Source: a virus. From it: a DNA stretch of 22,157 nt. The notes beneath the pieces are model-generated. The model searched no databases. It worked only from the letters and a program-made list of their open reading frames with translations, and had not been told where the DNA came from. The stretch is taken from the IMG/VR virus record IMGVR_UViG_3300028388_000946, positions 1 to 22,157 of that record. One strand, given 5' to 3'. The position numbers were made by a program, and so were the translations under genes. Below, piece by piece: positions 2,707 through 5,397 of this stretch; positions within the stretch are counted from its first letter, which is position 1; every line of letters begins with the position of its first letter.

Positions 2707-5397
2707 ATGGCTCTTGTCCCGTTAGATATTCCCCCAGGCTTCCACGGCAACGGCACTGACCTAGAGGAAAGCAATAAGTGGATCGACGGCAGCCTAGTGC
2801 GCTGGCTAGACGGATCACTGCGCCCGATTGGCGGGTGGCGTCAGCGCGTTGATAGCGTCACGTCGTCAACTGTCCGCGGGATGCACTCATGGCAGGCTAA
2901 CGACAACACCGCGTGGATGGCCTGCGGATCGTATCGAGAGCTAAAGGCAGTCAACGGCGGCGGGACTGTTTACGACATCACGCCCGACGACCTAGTTGAG
3001 GGCCGCGAGGACGGCATAATCGGCACGGGCTATGGCGCGGGTCGCTACGGCCGAGGCTTGTTTGGCGTTCCGATACAGCCAGAATCCGACAGCATCCCGT
3101 TCCCGGCTACAACGTGGGACCTTCAAAATTTCGGCGAAATACTGATTGCGTGCAGCGTGGATGACGGCGTCATCTGGGAGTGGGACCTGACGTTTACACC
3201 GGGTTCAGAGCTTGTCACCAACGGCGATTTTGCGGCGGACAGCGATTGGACAAAGGGCGTCAACTGGACAATCTCAGGCGGCGTCGCTGAGTATCAGCAA
3301 AACGTCAAGACATTCGACGCCGACGACGCGGCGGAGATAGACTACGCCACCGACACAATCACGATCACAGCGCACGGATTTAGCGATGGCGACGAGGTGA
3401 CCTATACGGTCCCGGCGGCGCCCGCGACGGCTGTGGGCGGTTTAACGACTGCGACTAATTACTTTATTGTCGGATCCACGGCCAACACGCTGCAACTAGC
3501 GGCGACGTCGGGCGGCGCGGCAATTGACCTGACGCAAAACGCATTGACGTTTGATGGCGACGATGCGGCGGTGGTTGACGTGGCGACAGATAAAATTGTC
3601 GACACAAACACATTCACCACTGGCGACTATGTGACCTACAGCAACGGCGGCGGAGTAGACATCGGCGGCCTTACCGACGGCGCCAACTATTACATCATCG
3701 CGGCGACTGCGTCGGAGTTTCAGCTATCGCTCACCTCTGGCGGCGCTGCAATAGATTTGACGGCCAACAATGAGGTCACAATCGACAGTACAGACGTGGC
3801 GGTCGTTGACGCGACTAACGATAAGATTATCACAGCTAACACGTTTAGCGACGGCGAGATCGTCACATATAGCAACGGTGGCGGCACAGACATCGCCGGC
3901 CTAGTTGATGGCACTGACTACTACATCATCAATGCAACGGCGACTGAGTTTCAGGTTTCCGCTACGTCAGGCGGCGCGGCGGTAGATATCACCGGCGTAG
4001 GCGTTGGCGCAGCGCATGTGTTCCGCCAAGACATCGGGTCAACGCATTCGTTTACCGTGGATCACGGCGACAACCATGAGCTGGCGCGCGTTAATTTCGG
4101 TGTGCTAGAGCAAACTGTCTCTGGCCTCACTGCGACGCCAGACAAGCAGGACACGCACGACGTCATCGTGACGCTGATTGATCCTGATGACGACAGCGAC
4201 GCGACGACGGTTCCAGACGTCAACGTCAAGGTAACGGGCACGACTAGCACGACGGTTTTAGTTGACCAGAAGCTAAGCGTTGGCACAAACCGTTTCCGCT
4301 TTGGCGCTGATGACACTGAGGTTAAAATTGAAATCGTGCCAAACGCGTACGACACGCCAAATTTTGACATCGACGACGTGTCACTGCGTTGGTATCCAGT
4401 TGCTGAGCCGGTAGACAATGCGCCGATAGATAACCTAGGCGTGCATGTCACTGAGGAGCGTTTTATCTTTGCGCTAGGTTCTGGTGGCGATCCCCGTAAG
4501 GTCGCGTGGTGCGATTTCGAGGATCGAGACACTTGGACCCCGTCGACAACAAATCAGGCGGGATCGCAAACGCTACAGACGAGCGGCCAAATCATGTGCG
4601 CCGTTCAGGGTCGAGGCAATTCTCTTATTATCACCGACACAGACGCGCACAGCGCGACATACGTCGGCCCGCCCTACATCTACCAGTTTAACCGCGTGGG
4701 CACGCACTGCGGGGCTGTGTCACGCAAATCAGCGGTGTCTACGGACAAGGGCGTTTTCTGGTACGGCCAGGAAAACTTCTTCTATTACGACGGCAACACC
4801 GTAAGCGTGCTGCCATGCGACGTCCACGATTTAGTGTTTGGCGATTTTAACACGTCGCAGCAATCAAAAGTGTGGGGCATGGTGAACGGTGCGCACCAAG
4901 AGGTCTGGTGGTTCTACCCAAGCGGCAATGCCACTGAGTGCGATAAATACGTCGCGTTCGACCTGATGGAGCGCCACTGGCTAGTCGGCGACCTCGCGCG
5001 GACGTCTGGCGTGTCGCGCGGCGTGTTTACATATCCGATCATGGCGCAGCGCCTGGCGGACAGCACAGACCTTATGGATCATGAGGTTGGCCACAACTAC
5101 GACGGCAGCACCGTGTATGCAGAAACCGGACCCATGTCTATGGGCGTCGGAGAGCAGATCGCCAAGGTAAACAACGTCATCCCCGACGAGAAAACGCAGG
5201 GCGACGTGCAGATGACATTTAAGACGCGCTTCTATCCCAACGGGACGGAGAGCAGCCACGGTCCGTTTGACCCGACAAACCCGACATCCGTTAGATTTAG
5301 CGGCAGACAGGTGCGGATGCGTGTCGAGCAGGATCAGGCGGTCGATTGGCGTGTCGGCATCATGCGCCTGAACACCGTCCCTGGAGGCACTAGATAA
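2707..5397 (+). CDS. Tail hub / DNA-stabilisation protein (P22 gp10- or T7 gp12-like) with inserted CBM-like and repeat domains
   Basis: The 896-aa product starts with IPPGFHGNGTDLEESNKW and VRWLDGSLRPIGGW, an opening I associate with hub-type proteins of marine podoviruses. The C-terminal third (about 570-896) resembles the beta-propeller region of P22 gp10 and T7 gp12, with R-x-VAWCDFEDRDTWTP, SLIITDT, GVFWYGQENFFYYDG and a DLMERHWLVGD segment. Between these parts, residues ~168-565 look like a carbohydrate-binding-type jelly roll, from ELVTNGDF to IDDVSLRW. That domain is itself interrupted at ~202-431 by three ~75-residue repeats. ATG 2707 is preferred over TTG 2704 because AAGGAG then sits 7 bases upstream. 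The stop overlaps the next start (TAATG). In the virion this protein would close the head-tail channel. Confidence 0.8.
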   Translation: MALVPLDIPPGFHGNGTDLEESNKWIDGSLVRWLDGSLRPIGGWRQRVDSVTSSTVRGMHSWQANDNTAWMACGSYRELKAVNGGGTVYDITPDDLVEGREDGIIGTGYGAGRYGRGLFGVPIQPESDSIPFPATTWDLQNFGEILIACSVDDGVIWEWDLTFTPGSELVTNGDFAADSDWTKGVNWTISGGVAEYQQNVKTFDADDAAEIDYATDTITITAHGFSDGDEVTYTVPAAPATAVGGLTTATNYFIVGSTANTLQLAATSGGAAIDLTQNALTFDGDDAAVVDVATDKIVDTNTFTTGDYVTYSNGGGVDIGGLTDGANYYIIAATASEFQLSLTSGGAAIDLTANNEVTIDSTDVAVVDATNDKIITANTFSDGEIVTYSNGGGTDIAGLVDGTDYYIINATATEFQVSATSGGAAVDITGVGVGAAHVFRQDIGSTHSFTVDHGDNHELARVNFGVLEQTVSGLTATPDKQDTHDVIVTLIDPDDDSDATTVPDVNVKVTGTTSTTVLVDQKLSVGTNRFRFGADDTEVKIEIVPNAYDTPNFDIDDVSLRWYPVAEPVDNAPIDNLGVHVTEERFIFALGSGGDPRKVAWCDFEDRDTWTPSTTNQAGSQTLQTSGQIMCAVQGRGNSLIITDTDAHSATYVGPPYIYQFNRVGTHCGAVSRKSAVSTDKGVFWYGQENFFYYDGNTVSVLPCDVHDLVFGDFNTSQQSKVWGMVNGAHQEVWWFYPSGNATECDKYVAFDLMERHWLVGDLARTSGVSRGVFTYPIMAQRLADSTDLMDHEVGHNYDGSTVYAETGPMSMGVGEQIAKVNNVIPDEKTQGDVQMTFKTRFYPNGTESSHGPFDPTNPTSVRFSGRQVRMRVEQDQAVDWRVGIMRLNTVPGGTR

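Follow-up and report, generated by a model that had tools for sequence, protein, structure and literature searches.

The nozzles of short-tailed phages are usually regarded as conserved plugs. In the window analyzed here, a stretch of virus DNA of 22,157 nucleotides (IMG/VR record IMGVR_UViG_3300028388_000946, positions 1 to 22,157), a nozzle-type ORF carries ~400 residues inserted after the motif DDGVIWEWDL (DDGxIWEWDL in homologues). The question is what this insert consists of, how its site has been used among relatives and what it may do at the tail tip. A preliminary description, made from the sequence, had proposed three repeats inside a CBM4/9-type jelly roll inside a gp10-like hub protein; the ORF, its coordinates and its motifs were found as described there.

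Nozzle gene and nested insert

The ORF at 2707-5397 encodes a podophage tail nozzle of the P22 gp10/Pa223/VP1/SU10 type, 896 aa in length, which closes the tail tip of a marine phage. Translation probably starts at the ATG at 2707; an in-frame TTG lies one codon 5′ of it, at 2704. The following features were assigned, with the basis of each assignment in brackets.

2707..5397, + strand: tail nozzle/hub protein (PHROG 3287, E 4e-69; AlphaFold2 model against solved nozzles)
2707..3186, + strand: N-terminal nozzle core, residues 1-160 (alignment with insertion-free homologues; DSSP of the model)
3187..3306, + strand: jelly roll, N-terminal part (ELVTNGDF...GGVAEYQQ), residues 161-200 (independent jelly-roll profile, positions 2-41)
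3325..3531, + strand: beta unit 1, residues 207-275 (unit profile)
3562..3759, + strand: beta unit 2, residues 286-351 (unit profile)
3793..3990, + strand: beta unit 3, residues 363-428 (unit profile)
3991..4098, + strand: linker with short RQDIGSTHxF-type motifs, residues 429-464 (sequence)
4099..4395, + strand: jelly roll, C-terminal part (LEQTVSGL...IDDVSLRW), residues 465-563 (independent jelly-roll profile, positions 43-135)
4414..5394, + strand: C-terminal nozzle core, residues 570-896 (PHROG 3287; model pLDDT)

Residues 1-160 contribute platform strands and presumably propeller blades 1 and 2, residues 570-896 presumably blades 3-7 together with the platform. These two parts, taken as the core, fell in PHROG 3287 (E 4e-69) and showed sequence homology to two solved nozzles, those of Pseudomonas phage Pa223 (core profile, E 3e-23) and Vibrio phage VP1. 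Searches of the whole protein against Pfam and NCBIfam gave chance-level matches only, with no nozzle or CBM family. The AlphaFold2 model of the 896-aa monomer had a mean pLDDT of 77, with most of the core at 81-93; the C-terminal core was mostly at 83-93 up to residue ~810 and the platform thereafter at 61-79. With its propeller and platform built from both termini, the model superposed on five solved nozzles across 400-455 residues (structural Z: Pa223, 30.7; VP1, 28.5; SU10, 28.4; crAss001 muzzle, 26.0; P22 gp10, 25.2). The comparison with P22 gp10 advised in the preliminary description, carried out on the monomer, thus returned a gp10-like hub core. The protein probably assembles as a hexamer. 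A homologue from phage phiM5 is annotated as present in the particle proteome.

The genes 3′ of the nozzle include a predicted DNA ejection protein. Relative L012 shows the same gene order for the 218-aa gene, the short gene next to it and the ejection-type genes. Two other ORFs of the window were noted. At 1685-2299, a 204-aa protein consists of degenerate repeats of ~22-26 residues (DSGSYTLTGQD type) and has a 280-aa counterpart at the same place in L012; at 99-857 lies a tail-fiber-like ORF, the C-terminal part of which matches many tail-fiber families.

Homologues of ~492 aa (Octadecabacter virus DB2 gp13, MW202879 and phiM5) aligned through the insertion site unbroken, and the flanks matched PHROG 3287 and the solved nozzles, as expected of an insert within a hub protein. 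The repeats are therefore not an integral part of the propeller, the case that the preliminary description had set against its own reading. For the insert itself, a jelly-roll profile was derived solely from jelly rolls of other phages that occupy this site and are not interrupted. Its positions 2-41 matched residues 161-200 (E 6e-7) and its positions 43-135 matched residues 465-561 (E 4e-24). Since these pieces are consecutive in the profile, the jelly roll is cut once and resumed ~264 residues on, and three beta units occupy the gap. The latter were detected with a unit profile from which the window and its two closest relatives had been excluded; it found exactly three units in the nozzle, matching residues 208-275, 286-351 and 365-428 (93-99 bits each). 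Because consecutive pieces of one profile flank units found by a window-free profile, the nested anatomy, with a jelly roll set in a gp10-like hub and itself enclosing the repeats, is demonstrated, and the two-piece match bears out the ends ELVTNGDF and IDDVSLRW proposed for the split domain. In a model of the insert only, both pieces formed one jelly-roll domain within the span (residues 168-565) for which its absence had been considered; the N-terminal half was poorly modelled (pLDDT 59-77 in the full model and <50 in the insert-only model).

Each unit is all beta (pLDDT mostly 85-96 in the insert-only model) and comprises ~66 residues followed by a linker of ~10, giving a spacing of 76-77. 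Pairwise identities were 34/66, 32/66 and 44/66 (shuffle Z 14-23). The count of three repeats was thus upheld, whereas their extent of ~75 residues was not: it includes the linkers, and residues 429-464 form an additional one. QDIGSxHxF motifs of the latter recur in differing number in L091 and L093. The same units were found in T4-type baseplate wedge, tail-fiber, head-closure-like and head proteins, and can therefore be considered a general virion module. When isolated phages were searched by tblastn with the repeat region, no match was obtained at 1e-5, a result in which the low-complexity filter may hide some matches.

Purifying selection on the insert was strong, with dN/dS of ~0.04-0.05 for the units and the C-terminal half of the jelly roll and 0.03-0.04 for the nozzle core (window against L001/L002); the insert is therefore neither decayed nor artefactual. 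An assembly artefact was rejected on the same low dN/dS and because L001 and L002, which came from other samples, share the architecture.

Relatives and use of the insertion slot

The survey set comprised 204 full-length homologous ORFs, 130 of which have 490-509 residues, and most relatives of the window nozzle are without any insert. A jelly roll only (629-653 aa overall) is present in L126, L131, L158 and others of 629-636 aa, and three units in the window, L001 and L002. Two or three units together with one or two plastocyanin-like domains occur in L003, L011, L020 and L096-L120 (~1,010 aa). In L091-L094 (1,460-1,538 aa), 7, 8 or 9 units are found, and the jelly roll contains a second array of them; in L091 and L093 this array occupies a different loop of that jelly roll, which is therefore interrupted twice. 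Up to ~1,040 residues are thus inserted at one point in nozzles of up to 1,538 aa and 9 units. The expectation that the repeat number would vary between relatives was confirmed (0, 2, 3, 7, 8 or 9 units). As the relatives cover all steps between insert-free nozzles and those with >1,000 inserted residues, phages appear to remodel the tail tip by adding modules at a single position. Nozzles with the window-type insert came from metagenome relatives only and from no cultured phage; sequenced isolates of Paracoccus and Caulobacter have nozzle homologues without insert at this slot. Organism names on contigs binned in metagenome-assembled genomes are unreliable as hosts.

A tree built on the C-terminal nozzle core requires six changes in the presence of an insert at the slot, and the AU test rejected one origin of all inserts, as one clade (p-AU 0.0006). 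The unit array fits one origin, that is, one change on the core tree, with a support of 75, which is not strong. L148, with an insert, and L164, without, are sisters (support 91). The jelly rolls of L150-L157, at the same slot, differ in sequence, which points to independent filling. Comparison of the DNA of L012 (insert) with that of L164 (none) gave no clean junction or duplication that could be read, since the cores are just 68-78% identical in DNA.

Other insertion sites were observed as well. In a separate nozzle clade (L008, L009, L010 and L314-L327), 80-280 residues are inserted after DITP, near blades 1-2, and in L008 and L009 this insert resembles the same unit type, FCCH/endosialidase-barrel-like. 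L088 has a jelly-roll-like insert in yet another nozzle loop, at core position ~74.

The plastocyanin-like module was found in the nozzle inserts of L003 (residues ~365-475), L011, L096-L120, L091-L094, L115, L185 and L270; a further nozzle site and a fiber-type ORF contain it as well. All four ligand positions for type-1 copper (H, C, H, M) were kept in 22 of 22 distinct copies, a count that is biased because the collection pattern required these residues. Judged from sequence, some tail tips may carry copper via these predicted domains; among the papers searched, none on plastocyanin-like domains in phage tails was found. We regard it as a tentative possibility, on the doubtful side, that the blade 2/3 slot is a general plug-in port of podophage nozzles, into which independent lineages insert unrelated modules, with further nesting and with tail reach tuned by repeat number, and with some tips bearing copper.

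Position of the insert compared with known nozzles

The strand order in the AlphaFold2 model presumably places the insert after the second propeller blade, and SU10 aligns collinearly. The insert most likely occupies a distal slot between blades 2 and 3. In SU10, four Ig-like nozzle domains between these blades form the tail tip; they are folded back in the virion and, upon straightening at genome release, lengthen the tail by 277 Å (PMC9509320). The nozzle of this Kuravirus (gp17; 7z4b/7z4f) has the same core (Z 28.4, 453 residues, 2.9 Å), with a large insert of several domains after blade 2 and before blade 3, whereas the insert of the window nozzle is a split jelly roll with nested units. 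The SU10 core aligned ~450 residues further on, with a weak score and collinear motifs, as expected since its insert lies upstream. No match was obtained by hhalign between the insert and SU10 gp17, and the straightening is not directly transferable because the inserted folds, best matched in the model by CBM-type jelly rolls, appear to differ from the Ig-like domains of SU10.

In crAss001, domain IG1 lies between blades 2 and 3 and IG2 in blade 3; loops of IG2 hold the large crass domain, which is located at the tail tip (PMC10172136). The muzzle of this phage (phi-crAss001 gp44; 7qol) shares with the window nozzle the nesting, the length variation among relatives and presumably the insertion between and in blades 2-3, but its inserted domains have Ig-like and crass folds, with other nested modules. 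P22 gp10 (8eap), Pa223 (9nwi) and VP1 (8zkk) have the same core fold and belong to the length class of the insert-free relatives; at 442-521 residues in all, they leave no room for a 400-residue insert. In T7, the nozzle tip exits the propeller via a blade 3 loop (PMC6702177). By these comparisons, use of the slot for tail-tip domains is already known from SU10 and crAss001, and the filling with jelly roll and units would be a new variant.

Possible function of the insert

We consider it the likelier reading, on balance, that a hexameric podophage nozzle carries the split jelly roll and its three units in the blade 2/3 slot as tip arms for reach and contact. Arms or a skirt around the tail tip would result from six nozzle copies, with the jelly roll as the base and possibly as a low-affinity surface binder; the units would act as stiff spacers, their number setting the reach and adding repeated contact surface. 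Such arms would touch the cell surface first and may rearrange upon channel opening, as in SU10.

Binding of a surface or glycan by the insert is putative, and a stricter reading makes it specific: the jelly roll would be a true CBM, the units would hold more sugar sites and the nozzle would be a receptor-binding protein, the podophage parallel of the siphophage "evolved Dit". In the latter, carbohydrate-binding insertions are known (PMC10688798); carbohydrate-binding-type modules are likewise added onto a conserved tail-hub protein there, but a different one. The distal tail of a marine roseophage also bears several carbohydrate-binding accessories (PMC10276861). Structurally, the joined halves of the jelly roll (model range 27-404) matched CBM-type jelly rolls and related sandwich folds with an rmsd of 2.2 Å over ~96 residues and a Z of 8-9.5, barely above background; the best solved matches, in the insert-only model, were a Cry1 C-terminal domain (Z 9.5), a porphyran CBM (9.1) and CBM4 1gui (8.1). 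Foldseek gave no clear match in the PDB for the whole insert, and CBM family profiles gave none up to an E of 10, either for the insert or for six homologues that are uninterrupted. Of the proposed CBM4/9-type domain, the CBM-type fold therefore holds, with moderate scores (Z 8.1 to 1gui), whereas membership of a CBM family by sequence does not. The unit profile reached endosialidase barrel structures (4hiz, E 0.007; 1v0e, 0.06), and this barrel is a known sialic-acid site (PMC12632334). The likeness to the Endosialidase (K1F, phi92) beta-barrel PF12195 and to E1_FCCH PF16190 is short (GDxVxxS...G), with best members at 1.6e-4 and 5e-4, under the gathering scores, and any kinship would be remote; the endosialidase barrel, too, accompanies a propeller. 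Repeat arrays in phages can also serve as linkers, a role reported for bacterial BACON domains (PMC6949934). Taken together, we consider a specific glycan receptor module rather unlikely.

Less probable still is a purely mechanical part, in which the insert would determine tail length, contribute to sealing and rearrange at ejection, but lack specific binding. The same slot in SU10 is a precedent, and the core stays fixed while the array length varies. Against this, the module types change (jelly roll, units, plastocyanin-like domains and the unrelated jelly rolls of L150-L157), which fits surface diversification better than a single mechanical part. Promiscuous decoration, a view proposed for many Ig-like virion domains in which recombination brings in modules that then persist without much of a specific role, would agree with the same units in unrelated virion proteins and with the many insert-free relatives, but is highly improbable given the strong purifying selection on the insert and its fixed insertion point.

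The series presents the same plug with modules nested to a depth of zero to three levels. It is a natural experiment in how tail tips acquire reach and surface-contact modules, and the structures of SU10 and crAss001 would be joined with it into one rule, that of a single permissive slot.
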